Origin: a virus
Reading direction: 5' to 3' (one strand)
DNA: 47,193 bases
IMG/VR virus record: IMGVR_UViG_3300008221_000010
Span: 1-47,193 of that record
In this document: piece after piece, positions 9,501 through 42,091 of the stretch
Position numbering within the stretch: position 1 is the first letter of the stretch
Layout: every line of letters starts with the position of its first letter
Notes under the pieces: generated by a model
What the model was told of the DNA's origin: nothing
Seen by the model: only the letters and a program-made list of their open reading frames with translations
The model's database searches: none
Position numbers and translations under genes: made by a program

Positions 9501-12500
9501 GCGGAAGACACATATACGTTTACTGATAAAAAAGGTATTGTGTATGTCTACGCAGATGAGCAAAACGAGGGCCAGCTACTAACAAAAGTAGACGCACAAG
9601 AGTTCTACGATAATCTCGCGTACACTCAAAGTGAAATGGGTTTCTTACTTATCGACCCTATGCATGGTTTGGATCAAGCTCTGCTGCCCAGCATCCGTAA
9701 CGCACTACAACGTGGTGATCTACAGTTCGCCCTCAACGCTATTGCGGCCACAAGCCAAGTAGACCGTATCCGTGAGATCGCAGCCAAGCTCGGTAGAGTT
9801 CTCGGCACGACACAGGTGCAAGTGGTTGACGATCTGTCTCAGATGACGGGGCGCAAAGCTGCTGGTATGTTTGAACCCGAAACAAATACAATTTACATCG
9901 ATGCTAACAACGGGATGAACGTGCATACTGTCTTGCACGAGATGACTCACGCGGCTACTTCGGCGGCTATAGCAAATCCCTCCTTACCAGAAGTTAAACA
10001 GCTACAAACTCTGCTTGACGCAGTGCGCGAGCAATTCGGCGAAGTATACGGCACCCGTAATCTCGACGAGTTTGTAGCAGAAGCCTTCAGTAATCCTGAG
10101 TTCCAGAGTGCGTTAGCTCTGACGAAGGTAGATGGCGGCAAGATGTCAGGCTGGGAGAAGTTTACAGGTGCCATTAAACGTGTCGTGCGTAAGATACTAG
10201 GTTTGTCTCCCTCCCCTTCAGCACTGACTGAAGTCGATGGCCTTATAGATGGTATGCTGGCTTCATCACCTGCCACACGGGCAGCGCCGAATATGTTGTT
10301 GATGGCAGGTACTAAGAAAGGGTCTTCGCAGCTACTCAGTAAAGCAGCGAACCTTGCGCCTGAAAAAGTTAAAGACTACGCAGATGTTATATTTAACGAA
10401 GGCGTTAGTGTAAAAGCAAAAAGCTGGGTATTAAATACATTACCCGTAAACATCTTGACAGATATAGCGGTTAAATACATTCCGTTCGCTAGAGAACTTA
10501 ACATGCTTATAAATAAGCAGAGTGGGGCGTTGCGGCAGAAGTCTGAACTGTTAGATTCTATGCTGAACAATCTCCATAAATGGCAGCGTAAAAATAAAGG
10601 TATGTCTGCTGTACTAAACAACATCATCCCGCGCAGTACTTACTTAAAGATTGATCCGTCACGGGGTAACGATGCTAAGTACATGAAAACTATTCGTGAC
10701 GACAAGGAACGCTCTGCCGAATACGATGAGTTGTTTGCAGAATACAGTAAGCTCGACGCACAAGGTAAGGCGTTTTATGGGCAGATGCGCAACTACTTCC
10801 AAGACACTTATGACGATATTATCGCTGCGTTAGACGCACGGTTGGACGCCACGATCCCCGATGCAGAGGCTAAGAAGAGCGCCTTTGAAGCCCTACGAAA
10901 GTTGCTACAGGCAGATTCTGGGATCATCCGCCCTTACTTCCCACTGCAACGTAAAGGAGGGTATCGTTTAGTCTATAACGCGCCTGACCCAGACAAGGGT
11001 AATATGGAGCAATTTGTAGAGTATTACCCCACGCTGCGTAAAGCGGAGCAAGCTCGCGCAGCTATTGCAGATGTCGATGTCGATGCAGAAATAACTTCCT
11101 CGACTAACCCTATGAACTTCGACAAAGCTCCATCAAGTAGCTTTGTCCGTAATATCCTGAACACAGTGGCACTGCGCAAGGAGTCATTTTCTTCAGAGCA
11201 AGAATACAAAGAAGCCATGCAGGCAATTGTTGATCTATCACTAGACGCAATGCCAGAGCGTTCGTTCATGCAGAACTTCCGCCGCCGTAAAGGCGCAAAT
11301 AATAAAGGTGTACGGGGTTTCCTTGGTGACACTACACCGACAGGTATGGGTGGTATGGAGTTCGACGCCTTTACAATGCTCAAAGAAAAAGGTCGTGATC
11401 TAAACCGTCAACTTGTGCAGCTAAAGTCCGCAGCGGAGATTGAAAAGTTTCGCGCTAAACTAGCGGGGCCGATCAGCGGTACAGAAGGGCCGACATATAA
11501 GACTGATCCCCGTACAGCTATGATGGCTGAAAAGCTAGACCAGGTCGCTAAGTTCGCGCAAAGCCCTAACGTACCTCGCTACTCACAAGTGGTAAACAGC
11601 TTGGGGTTTGGCTTTACGATGGGGCTTAACTTCTCGTCAGCGGCGATTACATTCTTTGACGTTGCCATGAGTGCTATGCCTGTCATTGCAGGTAAACATA
11701 AAGTAGGTCCAACGGCTCGTGCATTTGGAGCGGCTACTAAACTGTTTGCAGGTGCGCCCAGTAAGCGTACCATAATGGTTAAAGATGCAGACGGCCAACT
11801 TATCCCGCAAGAAATAAATATGGGTGCGGCTGGCAAATCTATCTCTAACTATGACCTAAATAGCTTACCTGAGATACTGCGTAATGTCCGTGCTGATATC
11901 CTTATAGCTATGGGCATAGACCAAGGGCAGTTCAATCAGTCCATGACGCAGGAGAATTTGGAGATAGGACGCGATGCGCCCTTAGAAACTTTTAATAAGT
12001 ATTCTAGTTTTATGTTTCATCACTCAGAACGCTTTAACCGTGAGACAACGCTTACCGCTTCTTACGTGTTAGAGGTCCAGAAAATGCAGCGTGAAAAAGG
12101 ATCACCCCTTACTGACGCTGACTATCGTGAAGCGGCGCAAGAAGCTATAAACACCACAGAGTTTACTCTTGGTTCTACAGCGGCGGCGGGGCGTCCAATT
12201 GTGGCGCAAGGGGCAATCGGTAACATCTTGTTCCTCTTTAAACGCTTTGCAATCAGTAAATACTATATGATGGCTAAGTTGGCGCAGGAATCTGCCAAAG
12301 GTGATCCAGTGGCTCGTGCGGCGGGGCGTAACTTCCTAATTTCAACTGGTCTGTTCGCAGGTCTTGGCGGTATGCCTTTGATGGGCGGTATCGGTGCAAT
12401 ATACAACATGTTTGCAGATGATGACGAAGACGACTTTGAAGCAATGACACGTAAGTTTGTTGGCGAAGGTATATATGGTGGGCTTTCCAACGAGATACTA

Positions 12501-13148: not shown

Positions 13149-13180
13149 TAAAAAAGCCCCGCACAGGTTATATGCGGGGC
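13147..13180 (-). terminator. Rho-independent terminator of the leftward arm
   Basis: GCCCCGCA (13156-13163) pairs perfectly with TGCGGGGC (13173-13180) around a nine-base loop. Read leftward, the stem is followed by six T's and a further AT-rich stretch (13147-13155). No T-run follows in the rightward direction, so it mainly stops leftward transcription, exactly where both arms converge. Confidence 0.85.
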
Positions 13181-30475: not shown

Positions 30476-30490
30476 GTAGTGACTCACTAC
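30476..30490. promoter_or_regulatory. Early-arm palindrome (exact)
   Basis: GTAGTGACTCACTAC in the 5' leader of the zinc-ribbon gene, downstream of the predicted transcription start and about 23 bases before the ATG. Confidence 0.7.
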
Positions 30491-30932: not shown

Positions 30933-30947
30933 GTAGTGACTCACTAC
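30933..30947. promoter_or_regulatory. Early-arm palindrome (exact)
   Basis: GTAGTGACTCACTAC in the non-coding region, first of three closely spaced copies. Confidence 0.7.
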
Positions 30948-30996: not shown

Positions 30997-31011
30997 GTAG
31001 TGAGTCACTAC
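30997..31011. promoter_or_regulatory. Early-arm palindrome (exact)
   Basis: GTAGTGAGTCACTAC at the end of the first duplication copy. Confidence 0.7.
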
Positions 31012-32268: not shown

Positions 32269-32350
32269 ACTTTAAAAAACGTCAATATGAGTCCCAGATT
32301 GAAAAGACTGCAAAAATTTTTTATACTCAAACGAAACAGGGGTGGGTAAA

Positions 32351-32938
32351 ATGGCGATACATATAGAACCGGAACTTAAAGTGCCGATGCGTGATGCACC
32401 AAAGATGGGTGACCTAGCGGTCAAGGCTGCGGCTGCTGCAAAGACTGCGGAGTACCTGCACGCTAATGGTTTGGAGATCAAAGCGAACAACGGGGACAAA
32501 GATACAGCGGCTGCGCTGGCCGTGGCATACGCGGAGAATCCTGATAAGGTTTCTAAGGCTGCTACTCCGAAACGGGTGGCGAACCTGACTCCAGCTACCC
32601 TGCTTATGACGGATAGGATACTCAAGGACTTTGGGCATTCGGTAGTGAAGAGCGCGGTACAGGTACGTTACCTAGTAACGAACAAACTGATTGAAGAGAC
32701 GGAGAACCCTGACCCGCGTATCCGCATACGTGCCTTGGAGCTGCTCGGTAAGATTAGCGACGTAGGGCTGTTTGCAGAAAAGTCTGAGGTGACAATCACC
32801 CACCAGACAACAGGTGACTTAAAAGATAAACTACGTGAAAAGCTGTCACGGTTGGTAAACCCAGAAGCCGAGGATGCCATAATGATGGAAGGTGAGGTCA
32901 TCGACGTAGACAAAGAGCTAGGGCTAGGCGATGACTAA
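32351..32938 (+). CDS. Terminase small subunit
   Basis: 195 residues from the ATG at 32351; a GTG three codons earlier has a poorer context. The core L-T-P-A-T-L-L-M-T-D...I-R-A-L-E-L-L-G-K-I-S-D-V-G-L-F-A-E-K-S-E-V-T-I is a pattern I associate with small terminase proteins in marine phages, and the large terminase follows with an eight-base overlap. It would recognise the packaging site and recruit the large subunit. Assignment rests mainly on position and this pattern. Confidence 0.65.
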   Translation: MAIHIEPELKVPMRDAPKMGDLAVKAAAAAKTAEYLHANGLEIKANNGDKDTAAALAVAYAENPDKVSKAATPKRVANLTPATLLMTDRILKDFGHSVVKSAVQVRYLVTNKLIEETENPDPRIRIRALELLGKISDVGLFAEKSEVTITHQTTGDLKDKLREKLSRLVNPEAEDAIMMEGEVIDVDKELGLGDD

Positions 32939-34502
32939 CACCGCTCCGCTAGCTGACCTAGCTACAGAAATGGACTTCTCCCCTGCTGAGATACAGCACA
33001 TGCTAGACAACCTAGATTCGTTTAGCTCCGAAGAGCTGGAGGAGATGGATAAGATTGTAGGGGAACTCTCTGCTCGAAAAAACAATCAGTCAGCGCATGA
33101 CGATCTTATAGAGTTCTGTAAGAGGATGCAGCCAGACTACAAAGTGGGTAGACACCACAGAATACTAGCAGACCAGCTCATGGCGCTGGAGGATGGTTCT
33201 AAGGACCGTGTGTGTGTCAACATACCTCCACGCCACGGTAAGTCGCAGCTAGTGTCGATCATGTACCCAGCGTGGTTCTTAGGCAGGAACCCGAACAAGA
33301 AGGTAATGATGGTGTCACACACCACAGACCTTGCGGTGGATTTCGGGCGGAAGGTTCGTAACTTAATCTCCGTTGATGCGTACAAAGATATATTCCCAGA
33401 AGTCTCGTTGGCGATTGACTCAAAGTCTGCGGGGCGGTGGAACACGAACTTCGGGGGTGAGTACTTCGCTTGTGGTATCGGCTCTGCGCTTGCTGGCCGT
33501 GGTGCTGATCTGCTGCTGGTAGATGACCCTCACTCTGAGCAGGATGTTATCAACGGGAACTTTTCTGTATTCGAGAAAGCATATGAGTGGTTTACCTTCG
33601 GCGCTCGTACACGTCTGATGCCCGGTGGCCGTGTGGCTATTGTACAGACTCGCTGGCATATGGACGACCTTACGGGCCGTGTGACTAACGACATGGTAAA
33701 GAACCCGATGTCTGATCAGTACGAAATAGTCGAGTTCCCTGCTATTTTGGACACAGAGGACGAGGATGGGAAGCCTATACAGAAGCCCCTGTGGCCTGAG
33801 TTCTTTGATCTACCAGCTTTGGAGCGTACTAAGGCGTCAATGCCTGCGTTCCAGTGGAACTCTCAGTACCAGCAGCAGCCTACTTCAGAAGAAGCGTCAA
33901 TTGTCAAGAGGGAATGGTGGAACATATGGCCGAATGATACCCCACCAGCCGTGGAATACATAATTATGTCCCTAGATGCGGCAGCAGAGAAGCATAACCG
34001 TGCCGATTACACTGCACTTACAACGTGGGGCGTGTTCTTTAATGAGAATGAGAACGCACATCACCTTATTCTCATGGATTCTATCAAGAAACGGCTGGAA
34101 TTTCCTGAGTTAAAGACTCTAGCCATGGAAGAATACAACAAATGGGAGCCAGATTCGTTCATTGTAGAGAAAAAGTCCTCTGGGACGGCTCTATACCAAG
34201 AAATGAGGCGTATGGGCCTGCCTGTACAGGAATATACCCCCCATAGAGGCACTGGGGACAAGCTTGCAAGGCTCAATAGCGTGGCTGACATCATTGCGTC
34301 GGGTATTGTGTGGGTACCAGCCACTCGTTGGGCAGATGAGCTAGTGGAAGAGGTGGCTGGGTTCCCGTTTATGTCAAACGATGACCTTGTTGACTCTACA
34401 GTCATGGCACTTCTACGGTTCAGGCAGGGTGGGTTTATCAGACTCCCGACTGACGAGATGGACGACGAGCCGACGTACCGTCATAAGAGAGAGTACTACT
34501 AA
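32931..34502 (+). CDS. Terminase large subunit
   Basis: 523 residues. ATPase: N-I-P-P-R-H-G-K-S (97-105) is the Walker A, L-L-L-V-D-D-P (194-200) the Walker B, and I-V-Q-T-R-W-H-M-D-D-L carries the coupling region. Nuclease: S-L-D-A-A (Asp349) with A-D-Y-T-A-L following, V-E-K-K-S-S-G-T-A-L, and N-D-D-L-V-D-S-T near the end supply the RNase H-like acidic residues. It powers DNA translocation into the capsid and cuts the concatemer. Start overlaps the small-subunit gene. Confidence 0.93.
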   Translation: MTNTAPLADLATEMDFSPAEIQHMLDNLDSFSSEELEEMDKIVGELSARKNNQSAHDDLIEFCKRMQPDYKVGRHHRILADQLMALEDGSKDRVCVNIPPRHGKSQLVSIMYPAWFLGRNPNKKVMMVSHTTDLAVDFGRKVRNLISVDAYKDIFPEVSLAIDSKSAGRWNTNFGGEYFACGIGSALAGRGADLLLVDDPHSEQDVINGNFSVFEKAYEWFTFGARTRLMPGGRVAIVQTRWHMDDLTGRVTNDMVKNPMSDQYEIVEFPAILDTEDEDGKPIQKPLWPEFFDLPALERTKASMPAFQWNSQYQQQPTSEEASIVKREWWNIWPNDTPPAVEYIIMSLDAAAEKHNRADYTALTTWGVFFNENENAHHLILMDSIKKRLEFPELKTLAMEEYNKWEPDSFIVEKKSSGTALYQEMRRMGLPVQEYTPHRGTGDKLARLNSVADIIASGIVWVPATRWADELVEEVAGFPFMSNDDLVDSTVMALLRFRQGGFIRLPTDEMDDEPTYRHKREYY

Positions 34503-34506
34503 AACC

Positions 34507-34677
34507 TCACTCTGGCATAACTTCAAAACAAAGTATTCTGGTTTTACTGTTAGTTATTAGAACCATCGCCTCGGACTTTGCGGCCTCACAAGCCTTGTCT
34601 GTCCTGAACTGTCCTAACTGATAGACATCCACGGCGTTGTTTGAATAGAGAAACCACATTAAGAAAAACATTACCAT
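34507..34677 (-). CDS. Small exported protein (56 residues), antisense pair
   Basis: ATG at 34677, overlapping the stop of the 155-residue gene (ATGGTAA), stop TGA at 34509-34507. The N-terminus M-V-M-F-F-L-M-W-F-L-Y-S-N-N-A looks like a signal peptide, leaving a short exported domain with two cysteines (30 and 50) suited to a disulfide. The coupling with a membrane protein recalls spanin- or holin-partner arrangements, but the Cys is not in a lipobox, so an outer-membrane lipoprotein is not supported. Confidence 0.55.
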   Translation of the reverse strand: MVMFFLMWFLYSNNAVDVYQLGQFRTDKACEAAKSEAMVLITNSKTRILCFEVMPE

Positions 34678-35138
34678 TTATCCATATATTTACCCAGTGC
34701 GAATATTAACGCAGCCATTCCAGACACAGCAAAGAAACAACCCAAGCACATCATCAGCATTTCGATAAGCTCTTCGCGTTCTTTTTGTTTTTGTTTCAAA
34801 GCCGCTCTTCTAGCCTTTCTAGCGTCCGCTTGCCAAAGAACCCAGCGATCCCAAGTGCCGGGCGGGCCGTATAATCTACACCAAGACTCTAGTTCTTTTC
34901 GCTGTTCTTTTAATTTCTCAAGGGCTTGGAACTCTTCCCAATCCCCTTCGGCCCCGCCCGTAATAGCAGAGATGGGATTATTCTTCTTGCGTTTTACGGC
35001 ATCCTTAAGCTCGTCCTCAGCGTTGAGAAACTTGCCAACATGGCCCACCATGTCTTTTACTTCGCGCCCGTTCTCAAGGCACTTCTTAATGATTGAGTAG
35101 GCGGCGTTAGCCGCTGCTATAGTCTCTAAAACAGCCAT
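34671..35138 (-). CDS. Coiled-coil protein with C-terminal membrane helix
   Basis: 155 residues. Helical N-terminus (A-N-A-A-Y-S-I-I-K-K-C-L-E-N-G), a charged helix, a R-L-Y-G-P-P-G-T-W-D-R-W motif, a Lys/Arg-rich helix, and a C-terminal hydrophobic span (M-L-M-M-C-L-G-C-F-F-A-V-S-G-M-A-A-L-I-F-A-L). I recall related proteins in other marine phages near terminase or tail genes. Encoded against the late arm together with the 56-residue exported protein, so a membrane or lysis role is plausible but unproven. Confidence 0.6.
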   Translation of the reverse strand: MAVLETIAAANAAYSIIKKCLENGREVKDMVGHVGKFLNAEDELKDAVKRKKNNPISAITGGAEGDWEEFQALEKLKEQRKELESWCRLYGPPGTWDRWVLWQADARKARRAALKQKQKEREELIEMLMMCLGCFFAVSGMAALIFALGKYMDKW

Positions 35139-35238: not shown

Positions 35239-35286
35239 AGACTTACAAAGATGACTTATTCATTTTTTGCTCCCCCCAAGAAACTA

Positions 35287-35310
35287 GGGGTCTTTATGGC
35301 CCCGATTTTT
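35287..35310 (+). terminator. Short rho-independent terminator or attenuator
   Basis: GGGGTC (35287-35292) and GGCCCC (35298-35303) form a 6-bp stem (one G-T) with loop TTTAT, then GATTTTT. It lies between the promoter above and the portal gene. Confidence 0.5.
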
Positions 35311-35345
35311 CTGATATAGTGGTACTTGAAGCGTGTTACTCCCAA

Positions 35346-35404
35346 GCGCGTTTCACGGCGGGGTGGGCATCCCACCCAACGGCCTGCCTCGCCACTAGAC
35401 GCGC
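35346..35404 (+). ncRNA. Nested stem structure upstream of portal gene
   Basis: Three nested inverted repeats: GCGCGT/ACGCGC (35346-35351 with 35399-35404), GGCG/CGCC (35357-35360 with 35390-35393), and GGGTGGG/CCCACCC (35361-35367 with 35371-35377). A 12-base bulge lies on one side and there is an outer internal loop. It resembles no RNA family I can name. It could be a leader RNA element, a packaging signal, or a protein-binding DNA structure. Confidence 0.5.
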
Positions 35405-35454
35405 AGTAGTATAATCTGCTAATATCATAATGTGTACACAGTTAGGAGACTGTA

Positions 35455-37869
35455 ATGGTGGTTGAGAAGCAAATGGACCCCTCTGATCTTGAGATCGAAG
35501 GGGCAAACGCGGAGAAGATCGAAGTAGAGATCGTAAACCCTGAAGCAGTATCCATTGATACAGGTGATGGCGGAGTGATTATTGACTTTGAAGGGGGCGC
35601 GTCCGAGGAACTCCTTGGTGATGACCACGATTCTAACCTTGCGGAAACGATAGAAGATGCTGTCCTACAGTCTATGGCATCCGAACTTGTTAGTGATTTT
35701 GATTCCGATCGGGAATCTCGACGTGATTGGGCAAGAGCCTACGTCAAAGGTCTAGACTTACTGGGAATGAAGATCGAAGACCGCAGTCAACCATGGCAGG
35801 GCGCGTCTGGTGTGTTCCACCCAGTGCTGACCGAAGCTGTTGTACGTTTTCAAGCGCAGGCTATGGGTGAGCTTTTCCCCGCATCTGGCCCTTGCCGTAC
35901 CAAGATTATGGGTAAAATGACCCCTGAGAAGCTAGATCAAGCTGATCGTATTCAGACAGAGATGAATTATCTCTTGACAGAGGAAATGACAGAATACCGC
36001 GATGAGACTGAACAAATGTTGTTTAAGCTCCCACTCGCTGGCTCTGCGTTCAAGAAAGTCTATTACGACCCAATCATGGAGCGTCCAGCTTCTATGTTTG
36101 TTCCAGCAGAAGACTTTGTGGCGTCTTACGGGGCGTCTGATCTAATGACATGCCCACGCTACACGCATGTAATGAAGAAAACGCCTAACGAAATTCTAGA
36201 GTTACAGGTAGCGGGCTTCTACAGAGAGGTTGATTTGCCTGTTCCAGAGGCAGACTTCTCTGATATACAAGATAAATATGACGAGCTTGATGGCGAGAGC
36301 GCCGTTATAGAAGACGATGATCGTCACACAATCCTTGAAGTACACGTTACTATGAACATGCCAGAGGAGTTCGACGACCCTGATGGGATCGCGCGTCCGT
36401 ATGTTGTTACTATTGATAAGTCTTCTCGCGAAATTTTATCCATCAGAAGGAATTGGTACGAGGATGACCGTAAGAAAAAGAAACGAGCGCATTTCGTTCA
36501 TTATAAATATTTGCCGGGACTGGGGTTCTACGGTACGGGGCTTATTCATCTCATTGGCGGTCTCGCCAAGTCTGCTACTTCAATACTTCGTCAGCTCATT
36601 GATGCTGGTACACTGTCAAATCTACCTGCTGGCCTTAAAGCTAGGGGTCTCCGTATTAAAGGCGACGACACCCCTCTTATGCCGGGTGAGTTCAGGGACG
36701 TGGATGTACCGGGTGGGGCTATCAGGGATTCGATTACGTTCATACCTTACAAAGAACCGTCGAGTGTTCTCTACTCGTTACTGGGAAATATTGTCGAAGA
36801 GGGAAGACGGATTGGCTCAGTTGCGGACATTCAAGTAGGTGATATGAACGCACAGGCACCTGTGGGTACAACGCTTGCTTTGATGGAGCGGTCCATGAAG
36901 GTGATGTCTGGGGTCCAAGCGCGTATGCACGCAGCTATGAAGAAAGAACTTCGCTTGCTGTCGAGTATTATCCGAGACTACATGCCAGCAGAATACGCCT
37001 ACGAAATGGATGGTGACTTTAACCGACAGGAAGATTTTGATGCTCGTGTAGATGTCATCCCTGTATCTGATCCTAATGCTGCAACTATGTCCCAACGGAT
37101 TATGCAATACCAAGCAGCCCTACAGCTTTCTCAGCAGGCTCCACAACTCTACGACTTAGGTAAGTTGCACAGGCAGATGCTAGAAGTTCTGGGGATTCAG
37201 GACGCTTCAGATATTATTAAGCTACCTGAAGACATTAAACCGTCTGACCCTGTTACAGAAAACATGATGATGCTGAAGCAAGAGCCTGTCAGAGCGTTTA
37301 AGTATCAGGATCACGAGGCACATATCACTGTACACATGGCTGCAATGCAAGACCCGAAAATGCGGGAGATGGTTGGTCAATCCCCCTTCGCCCAAGCTAT
37401 AGGGCAAGCAATGGCAGCGCACATAACAGAACATGTTGCGTTTCAATACCGTCGTGAGATTGAGAAGATGCTTGGTGTTGAGATGCCAAACGAAGACCAG
37501 CCTTTACCAGAAGACGTAGAGATTCAGCTTTCTAGGCTCGCAAAAGACGCTTCAGAAAAATTGCTTCAGAAAGGTCAGATGGAAGAACAGCAGAAGCAAG
37601 CGGAACAACAGCAGCAAGACCCAGTTGTTCAGATGCAGCAAGCGGAGTTGCAGATAAAACAGAAAGAACTACAGCATAAGATTCAGATGGATACTGCTAA
37701 GTTACAGATTGATGCGGAGCGTATATCTGCTGAAAACCAACGAGAGGGCGCACGTTTAGGCGTTAGACTTGCCACCGATCTGGACAAATCCCAACGGGAT
37801 GACCAGAAAGAAGGCGCAAAACTAGGTATAGAAGTAGCAAAGGAGCTTGCTAAGGGAGATGGAAGATAA
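35455..37869 (+). CDS. Portal protein (P22-like)
   Basis: 804 residues, TTAGGAGACTGTA before the ATG. An acidic N-terminus is followed by R-D-W-A-R-A-Y-V-K-G...W-Q-G-A-S-G-V-F-H-P-V-L-T-E-A-V-V-R-F-Q, then a central portal core with G-T-T-L-A-L-M-E-R-S-M-K-V-M-S-G-V-Q, a strong signature of the long portals of P22-like podoviruses. The C-terminal ~130 residues are a Gln/Lys-rich helix, as in barrel-forming portals. It sits between terminase and scaffold genes. Twelve copies should form the entry vertex. Confidence 0.88.
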   Translation: MVVEKQMDPSDLEIEGANAEKIEVEIVNPEAVSIDTGDGGVIIDFEGGASEELLGDDHDSNLAETIEDAVLQSMASELVSDFDSDRESRRDWARAYVKGLDLLGMKIEDRSQPWQGASGVFHPVLTEAVVRFQAQAMGELFPASGPCRTKIMGKMTPEKLDQADRIQTEMNYLLTEEMTEYRDETEQMLFKLPLAGSAFKKVYYDPIMERPASMFVPAEDFVASYGASDLMTCPRYTHVMKKTPNEILELQVAGFYREVDLPVPEADFSDIQDKYDELDGESAVIEDDDRHTILEVHVTMNMPEEFDDPDGIARPYVVTIDKSSREILSIRRNWYEDDRKKKKRAHFVHYKYLPGLGFYGTGLIHLIGGLAKSATSILRQLIDAGTLSNLPAGLKARGLRIKGDDTPLMPGEFRDVDVPGGAIRDSITFIPYKEPSSVLYSLLGNIVEEGRRIGSVADIQVGDMNAQAPVGTTLALMERSMKVMSGVQARMHAAMKKELRLLSSIIRDYMPAEYAYEMDGDFNRQEDFDARVDVIPVSDPNAATMSQRIMQYQAALQLSQQAPQLYDLGKLHRQMLEVLGIQDASDIIKLPEDIKPSDPVTENMMMLKQEPVRAFKYQDHEAHITVHMAAMQDPKMREMVGQSPFAQAIGQAMAAHITEHVAFQYRREIEKMLGVEMPNEDQPLPEDVEIQLSRLAKDASEKLLQKGQMEEQQKQAEQQQQDPVVQMQQAELQIKQKELQHKIQMDTAKLQIDAERISAENQREGARLGVRLATDLDKSQRDDQKEGAKLGIEVAKELAKGDGR

Positions 37870-40566: not shown

Positions 40567-41472
40567 ATGGCTATTTCACGCGCCCAGCTCCTTAAAGAGC
40601 TATTGCCGGGTCTCAACGCTCTCTTCGGGCTTGAGTATGGCAAGTACGAAAACGAACATGCAGAAATCTATGAGACCGAGAACTCAGAGCGTAGTTTTGA
40701 GGAAGAGGTTAAATTATCAGGATTTGGCGCAGCCCCAGTGAAAGCTGAAGGTTCTGCTATTTCTTATGATAATGCTCAAGAGTCGTTCACAGCCCGTTAC
40801 AACCATGAAACGGTTGGCATGGGTTTCTCCATCACTGAAGAAGCGATGGAAGATAACTTGTACGATTCATTGTCTGCACGTTACACAAAAGCCTTGGCTC
40901 GCGCCATGGCGTACACCAAGCAGGTTAAGGCCGCTTCGTTGTTGAACACAGGCTTCACCACCTTTAACTCAGGTGACGGCGCTACATTGTTCTCAACAGC
41001 ACACGGTACTGTAGCTGGTGGTGTAAATCGTAACCGCCCAGCAGCTAATGCTGACTTGAACGAAACCTCGCTTGAGCAAGCGGTCATTGACATTGCTGCG
41101 TTCACTGATGAACGTGGATTGTTAATCGCTGCGCGTCCACGCAAGCTTATCGTTCCACCTGCGTTGATGTTTGTTGCAACTCGTTTGCTCCAGACTGACC
41201 TACGTGTAGGTACAGCGGATAACGACATTAATGCTCTTAGCAGCAATGGTTCGATCCCTGAAGGCTACCGTGTCAATCATTACCTGACTGACGCAGACGC
41301 CTTCTTCCTAACTACAGATGTTCCAAACGGCATGAAGCATTTCATCCGTACTGCTATGCAGACATCTATGGACGGTGATTTCGATACAGGTAACGTGCGC
41401 TACAAAGCGCGTGAGCGTTATTCTTTCGGCGTATCCGACCCACTAGGTATGTACGGTTCACCCGGCGTATAA
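40567..41472 (+). CDS. Major capsid protein
   Basis: 301 residues, with a very strong AAGGAGGTTAAATA leader, fitting high expression. Features: E-R-S-F-E-E-E-V-K-L-S-G-F-G, a central T-V-G-M-G-F-S-I-T-E-E-A-M-E-D-N, and a C-terminal R-Y-K-A-R-E-R-Y-S-F-G-V-S-D-P, as in HK97-fold capsid proteins of the gpT-like group. It follows scaffold and decoration genes and is followed by a strong terminator. Confidence 0.8.
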   Translation: MAISRAQLLKELLPGLNALFGLEYGKYENEHAEIYETENSERSFEEEVKLSGFGAAPVKAEGSAISYDNAQESFTARYNHETVGMGFSITEEAMEDNLYDSLSARYTKALARAMAYTKQVKAASLLNTGFTTFNSGDGATLFSTAHGTVAGGVNRNRPAANADLNETSLEQAVIDIAAFTDERGLLIAARPRKLIVPPALMFVATRLLQTDLRVGTADNDINALSSNGSIPEGYRVNHYLTDADAFFLTTDVPNGMKHFIRTAMQTSMDGDFDTGNVRYKARERYSFGVSDPLGMYGSPGV

Positions 41473-41493: not shown

Positions 41494-41522
41494 GGGGCTG
41501 CTTCGGTAGCCCCTTTCTTTTT
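41494..41522 (+). terminator. Rho-independent terminator after capsid gene
   Basis: GGGGCTGC-TTCG-GTAGCCCC (41494-41513), an 8-bp stem with one G-T wobble and a UUCG loop, followed by TTTCTTTTT (41514-41522). Confidence 0.9.
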
Positions 41523-41599
41523 AAAAAAACATGTGTATACTTTTGTTATCCCTGACAGCTACATGATGTGGCTGACACAACCCACGACAGGAGATCATC

Positions 41600-42091
41600 A
41601 TGGGTACTACAACTTTTTCAGGACCAATTCGGTCAGGTACAATTAAAGATACAACAGGTACTGTCGTAGGCACTAACATTGCTAACGTCGGTCAAGTTGT
41701 TCTGCACCAACGTGCAGCTATAACTCAAGCTTTAACTATTGCCGCACAAACCCCTGCTACAACCATTATAATCCCTGCTTCCAGCATAATCCTAGCGATA
41801 AGATTATATGTTGCAACTGCTTGGACTGGCGCTGCCACAACAGGTGGTGTTGGATTTGATGACGGTGCAATCATAACCGCAGCAGCTCTTACCGCAGCAG
41901 GTGCCGTAGCAGGAGGTACTTTAGGTGTTATAAGTATCGGCAGTGGCGCAAACGCAGGGCGAGTAGCTAACTGGACTAACGTCGGTACAAATGACAAACG
42001 CATTCGCTTTTTAAGCACAAATACAGGAAATGGCGTAGGTATTCTTGAAGTCCAGTACGTGCAAGCAGCTAACGTCGCAGTACAACCGTAA
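41600..42091 (+). CDS. Hypothetical structural protein (Ala/Thr-rich)
   Basis: 163 residues, CAGGAGATCATC leader. The sequence is beta-rich and small-residue-rich (T-I-I-I-P-A-S-S-I-I-L-A-I-R-L-Y-V-A-T-A-W). Resembles surface or decoration proteins rather than enzymes. First gene after the capsid terminator. A 9-bp imperfect stem (41556-41574) lies in its leader region. Confidence 0.5.
   Translation: MGTTTFSGPIRSGTIKDTTGTVVGTNIANVGQVVLHQRAAITQALTIAAQTPATTIIIPASSIILAIRLYVATAWTGAATTGGVGFDDGAIITAAALTAAGAVAGGTLGVISIGSGANAGRVANWTNVGTNDKRIRFLSTNTGNGVGILEVQYVQAANVAVQP

Follow-up and report, generated by a model that had tools for sequence, protein, structure and literature searches.

A two-hairpin RNA element, very probably a new family of 5′ leaders, at the start of the packaging and head genes of uncultured marine phages

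The closest described RNAs and the locus compared

The put RNAs of phage HK022, in the passages that PMC9378689 devotes to them, are about 70 nt long and made of two stem-loops; putL lies just downstream of its promoter, its first paired base being A3, and termination is suppressed without a protein factor, by way of the beta' zinc-binding domain. The ar14/NfeR1 small RNAs, in the portions of PMC10746234 and PMC3927594 that concern them, have hairpins with diverging stems that carry the anti-Shine-Dalgarno (anti-SD) sequence CCUCCUCCC, and their silencing of messengers takes place at the Shine-Dalgarno (SD) sequence. The element described here occupies positions 35327-35393 of a marine tailed-phage record (IMG/VR IMGVR_UViG_3300008221_000010), the whole 47,193 bases of which were analysed and are called the window below, and it very probably represents a new 5′-leader RNA family of phage late messengers.

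The stretch that first drew attention (35346-35404) sits between a divergent gene of unassigned function on the − strand (34671-35138, phrog_32327), which in the window separates the element from terL (32931-34502, + strand; the gene that comes after the element in what we call below group-2 relatives), and the portal gene (35455-37869, + strand, phrog_1216). The portal gene starts at ATG 35455 and has its SD sequence, AGGAG, at 35444-35448 (+ strand), kept in the group-1 alignment; further along lies the capsid gene (40567-41472), and a GroES-like gene is also present in the window. Among the isolates found, such as the Pelagibacter phages HTVC023P and HTVC027P, none has a portal more than about 46% identical to the window's, and a search of genome_contigs turned up no portal relative.

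The element resembles HK022 putL and putR in its two adjacent stem-loops, in its size (about 67 nt with 11 and 12 pairs in the fold of the window, conserved in three groups of relatives) and in its predicted place at or near the start of a phage operon transcript. The two are likened by description only, and put stands on early operons of lambdoid coliphage, whereas the element stands on a late operon of uncultured marine phages and has near-perfect stems with conserved C-rich apical loops. With the alphaproteobacterial ar14 RNAs (RF02344, NfeR1) it shares tandem hairpins, diverged stems and conserved C-rich loops complementary to SD sequences. However, ar14 has three hairpins with CCUCCUCCC in each and is free-standing with a terminator, while the element has two, with CTCCC and CCCAC in its loops, and no terminator after the second, a promoter-like pair, or immediately a ribosome-binding site with its gene, coming next. 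The ar14 covariance model aligns end to end with one relative, L063, at 20.9 bits (E 0.02), in a kind of search where unrelated families reached E 0.07 on another stretch; it has no match in the window at E ≤ 10, nor in the relative L256. Membership of ar14 is ruled out by that score, the gathering score being 58.8. Over the element, Rfam 15 holds no family at the gathering score, and the result was the same at permissive E; this agrees with the earlier note, which knew of no RNA class that it matched. A literature search recognised no description of a two-hairpin late-gene leader. Judging from sequence comparison, the combination of compensating stems and constant C-rich loops marks an undescribed regulatory RNA.

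Structure, strand and predicted promoters

The structure, strand, loop conservation and position of the element are computational results, and they redraw a structure proposed earlier. The earlier note had read 35346-35404 as three inverted repeats stacked inside one another: GCGCGT 35346-35351 with ACGCGC 35399-35404, GGCG 35357-35360 with CGCC 35390-35393, and GGGTGGG 35361-35367 with CCCACCC 35371-35377. All three are present in the sequence, but they do not form one nested structure, for the inner 7-bp repeat shares bases with the 12-bp helix described below and the two are mutually exclusive. Across 31 aligned relatives the outer stem is paired in 69.9% of cells against 67.9% after shuffling, and the inner one in 47.9% against 47.8%; GGCG/CGCC is the sole conserved repeat of the three, as the base of that 12-bp helix. 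The compensatory changes looked for in relatives do exist, but in another pairing than the one drawn, and the boundaries move accordingly, since a start at 35346 cuts the first hairpin in half and the conserved element spans about 35327-35393. The contrast in base composition holds (GC 0.53-0.58 in the overlying 100-base intervals, 0.29-0.45 just upstream), and on the + strand none of 200 dinucleotide shuffles folds as well as the 59-mer (z −4.3), as opposed to z −1.3 on the − strand, where this does not hold.

The element consists of hairpin P1 (stem 35327-35337/35345-35355, loop ACUCCCA 35338-35344) and hairpin P2 (stem 35357-35368/35382-35393, loop AUCCCACCCAACG 35369-35381), both on the + strand, which stand side by side with the single unpaired base C35356 between them and rest on folding and covariation alike. 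Eighty portal relatives were fetched, and group 1 (alignment A1) was made by aligning 31 upstream sequences, those of the window and 30 relatives; group 2 (A5, 19 rows) and group 3 (A6, 12 rows) were aligned separately, duplicate sequences having been removed ahead of the alignments. L055 was excluded from A1, its regular-expression match there not being the element, which this relative carries before terL. The consensus fold of A1 is again two adjacent hairpins, with 19 pairs, 98.3% of cells paired and 12 of the 19 pairs changing on both sides; all 500 shuffles fell short on each of the five measures, and slid versions of the structure paired in 34-49% of cells. P1 taken separately is paired in 99.5% of A1 cells, with changes on both sides in 5 of 7 pairs. 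Group 2 is paired in 95.9% of cells, with changes on both sides in 13 of 18 pairs, and group 3 in 94.0%, with such changes in 11 of 21. The covariation score was reached by 0 of 500 shuffles in each of the three alignments, and the slid controls paired in 34-51% of cells across them; among the five measures, that of further pair types was attained in group 3 by 81 of the 500 shuffles. An outer pairing of the 3′ strand of P1 with bases after P2 (74.2% paired, at a slide of +2) was also considered, and it was dropped because P1 itself is so nearly always paired.

Summed over the three alignments, G-U cells number 151 and A-C cells 5, and the selection is therefore on the + strand RNA. In these counts, as in those of promoters, L073, L077 and L136 were counted once, in A6. 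The stems diverge across relatives while the C-rich loops stay constant: CTCCC (CUCCC in the RNA) is found in the P1 loop of all 54 distinct elements, and the P2 loops are always C-rich, with CCCC in 47 and CCCAC in 46 of the 54. In two far relatives, L207 and L237, CUCCC is found in both loops, i.e., the motif is repeated.

A predicted promoter with an extended −10 (TGA TATAGT, 35312-35320, + strand), here called P_A, precedes P1, with the RNA start expected at about 35326-35328. A −10-like hexamer (TATAAT with at most one mismatch) ending 4-9 nt before P1 is found in 18 of 24 group-1 and in all 19 group-2 elements, i.e., in 37 of 43 against 2-3% at control positions; in group 3 it is found in 1 of 12 at that threshold and in 6 of 12 at four matches (control 24%), and TTGTTT stands at −35 distance in 10 of the 12. 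L007, where the element lies directly behind terL, is without a good −10 before P1. From these positions we infer that the RNA starts at the foot of P1, and this predicted location, together with the strong compensatory change in three groups, favours the first of the roles that the earlier note had offered, a leader RNA. That note had also pointed to a TATAAT ahead of the portal start, and there is one at 35410-35415, but it is unconserved in relatives. What is conserved there instead is a promoter-like pair, the predicted promoter P_B (35396-35425, + strand), with TAGACG at 35396-35401, a spacing of 18 nt and TAATAT at 35420-35425 preceded by TGC (TGC TAATAT, 35417-35425); its pattern occurs in 24/24 group-1, 12/12 group-3 and 0/19 group-2 elements and at 0.4-1.2% of control positions. 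The late genes appear to be organised in units, each with a promoter, a leader RNA, its genes and a terminator.

Upstream of P_A, a further predicted promoter, P0 (35211-35238, + strand; read as TTGGTT, 16 nt, TGT TATAAT), would drive a short transcript. The window's predicted short RNA (35245-35309, + strand) is a small-RNA-like unit, U-rich, with the C-rich GCTCCCCCC at 35269-35277 and an intrinsic terminator whose stem is 35287-35303; relatives have TTTTTTGCTCCTCCC and a terminator. In many group-1 genomes P_A has ahead of it such a short unit, made up of a promoter, a stretch that is U-rich and carries GCTCCTCCC, and an intrinsic terminator; in several of the loci L005-L012 the unit is lost or decayed.

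Position among relatives

In the contigs of 112 relatives the element was found before portal in 51, before terL in 38 (35 by structural descriptor or covariance model and three, L037, L202 and L043, by eye) and elsewhere in two, namely L207, where it precedes a small ORF ahead of terL, and L238; the other 21, with just 1-1540 bases of upstream sequence, were not judgeable. The element thus heads the packaging/head unit in all 91 judged relatives, outside any Rfam 15 family at threshold, and it keeps to the start of that unit although the first gene differs. The covariance model was built from 27 group-1 sequences and matches the window once; where relatives have no element ahead of portal, it matched about 1.5 kb upstream, directly before terL, so that the idea of an element found only before portal is refuted. 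The same search gave 25 of 44 loci at E ≤ 1, many of the others being cut short and four of the 44 being isolates. The third, diverged group, before portal, came from further relatives.

In 16 whole records there is no second copy, although G006 has the same hairpins weakly echoed on its reverse strand. One record, G004, had no match when searched whole, and the locus that it holds, L068, scored 19.0 bits (E 0.017), its hairpins being found by the descriptor. Model R1 has no match in any of the four isolates' whole records (Pelagibacter phage HTVC023P, Roseobacter phage CRP-901, phage DSL-LC04 and phage 023Pt_psg01), and the element was found in 0 of 80 HTVC023P-type loci, many of which have little upstream sequence; by these absences it appears lineage-bound. 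A DNA search of phage records gave no match. A pattern scan of viral_contigs gave at least 20 loci with the element, all of them before portal, among the 72 new matches listed and inspected by eye, the other listed matches being chance-like; a second scan gave 66 stretches, seven of them chance-like by eye (L269, L277, L280, L284, L289, L298 and L313), and a third gave eight, one of them chance-like (L325). Run over 5.33 Mb on both strands, with many duplicate contigs, the structural descriptor gave one match judged false (L298), and it missed elements found by the covariance model (e.g., L033, L247 and L258).

The unit headed by the element in the window ends at an intrinsic terminator read after the major capsid gene (41494-41522, + strand). 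By eye, a strong terminator stands there in nearly all relatives among the matches listed, although the pattern scan of the window did not report it, and in the relatives listed it is followed by a promoter-like sequence and then by another leader-like sequence. In the window (41494-41602) the terminator is followed by the promoter-like TGTGTATACT and then by Mu-gpT-DE (RF03012, 69 bits; 41550-41602), which thus resembles a 5′ leader for the following unit. Like the element, Mu-gpT-DE is a leader-like RNA, occurs in the same phages and comes just after a promoter-like sequence; it differs in sequence, and in its place before the gene after the capsid gene. Many relatives, among them L063 (about 12110-12220), have a different leader-like sequence, GGGGCAACATTAGCCTTGCAGACAGG...GTGCAAGGGGTATTAATATG, where Mu-gpT-DE would be; it has no Rfam match across its whole length and may be a second undescribed leader RNA.

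Candidate modes of action

Our best explanation as a whole, to which we lean without granting it even confidence, is that the element is a two-hairpin RNA at the 5′ end of the late messenger whose loops act by antisense pairing. We prefer it because the conserved letters are in the loops, not in the stems, and because the motif repeats. Under this scheme, a sigma70-type promoter (P_A) would start transcription at the foot of P1, and P1 and P2 would form side by side at the very 5′ end of the packaging/head messenger, each presenting a C-rich loop, CUCCC in P1 and CCCAC in P2. The loops would pair with G-rich, SD-like sequences as do the hairpin loops of ar14-type small RNAs, so that the late messenger, once abundant, or a 5′ fragment processed from it, would lower translation of other messengers, while the hairpins would also protect the messenger's end. 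That the pairing is of the ar14 kind is an analogy, and we hold this part more tentatively. If it is true, two anti-SD-like hairpins silence translation just as the head genes come on.

A candidate target in the window's group is the messenger of the gene preceding terL; this gene is terS-like only in its position, and its ribosome-binding region holds GGGGTGGG (32339-32346, + strand); in the window GGGTGGG there complements CCCACCC of the P2 loop. This lead came from a window-wide listing of loop complementarity to translation starts, among other strong matches, and GGTGGG has 34 occurrences in the window, counting both strands. Among 39 loci the ribosome-binding region of this gene has GGTGGG in 29, GGTGGA in nine and TTGGGGATT in L259, where it faces a matching variant of the P2 loop, ATCCCCA. 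Within group 1 the match is near-invariant and so yields no covariation; in the three group-2 terS-like ORFs that were examined it is absent. The pairing of P2 loop and terS-like SD in group 1 is suggestive, and the fuller notion, that the late messenger's 5′ end is a built-in small RNA shutting down an earlier phage gene (the terS-like one) and possibly host messengers, is conjectural and rather doubtful. Against antisense action count the poor anti-SD quality of CCCCACC and the presence of P_B, which in groups 1 and 3 would give rise to portal messengers lacking the element.

Loops that stay invariant while their stems diverge would also be expected if a phage or host protein read the two C-rich loops and controlled the stability or translation of the late messenger, and 5′-terminal hairpins commonly stabilise messengers; we regard such a protective, protein-binding leader as possible, if on the doubtful side, since no protein partner is indicated and since P2 stands anywhere from 14 to 68 nt ahead of the start codon, which does not resemble a classical operator covering a ribosome-binding site. 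Set against a put-like antiterminator in cis, it fits nearly as well. In that second alternative, which we think unlikely, the nascent two-hairpin RNA would bind the elongating RNA polymerase and let it pass terminators of the late region, and P_B would supply unmodified polymerases that stop after the capsid gene. Size, two stem-loops and 5′ place match HK022 put as the passages on it in PMC9378689 give them, with a predicted start at the foot of P1 and about 67 nt, and the idea would give a purpose to the double promoter and to the strong intrinsic terminator after the capsid gene, seen in nearly all relatives among the matches listed. The conserved letters, however, are apical loops repeated in both hairpins and not bulges near the stem junction, the promoter-like sequence past the capsid terminator means that read-through is not needed, and the terminator scan listed no strong + strand intrinsic terminator between portal and capsid. 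Either outcome, a protein-free antiterminator beyond lambdoid phages or an antisense module in a late messenger, would be informative, and the element offers a compact handle on late-gene timing in uncultured ocean phages.

Less can be said for the remaining alternatives. A switch in cis, in which CUCC of the P1 loop would pair with GGAG of the first gene's own ribosome-binding site, draws on the at least four contiguous pairs possible in most elements; it is very unlikely, given that own loops and SD sequences pair no better than swapped ones, that several group-3 elements retain CUCCC opposite a GAGAGAG site and that the spacing varies. For the P1 loop and its own downstream SD the value was 12.4 against 12.5 for swapped pairs (p 0.75), and for P2 a small excess over all swaps (p 0.013) was gone within groups (p 0.62); L259 was omitted here, no start codon meeting the script's rule, and pairing of a loop with the element's own SD was rejected on this null. 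The two further roles that the earlier note had proposed, a packaging RNA and a terminase recognition structure (a pac or cos site in the DNA), could appeal to the position of the element, which out of 91 relatives showing it stands next to terL or portal in 89, and are nonetheless hardly credible. The loops of phi29 packaging RNA are mutually complementary, giving rings, whereas the element's are both C-rich in every case and cannot pair with each other, and no Rfam family matches at threshold. A terminase site in the DNA would keep its pairing equally on both strands, which is not what the G-U and A-C counts show, and the element's shift between portal and terL argues against a DNA packaging site, as it does against a portal-specific one.

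Elsewhere in the window, a palindrome, GTAGTGA(C/G)TCACTAC, occurs three times (30476-30490, 30933-30947 and 30997-31011) in a region without long ORFs, its copies being perhaps operator sites, and a strong hairpin with a T-run lies at 13156-13180, between the ends of two converging gene blocks.
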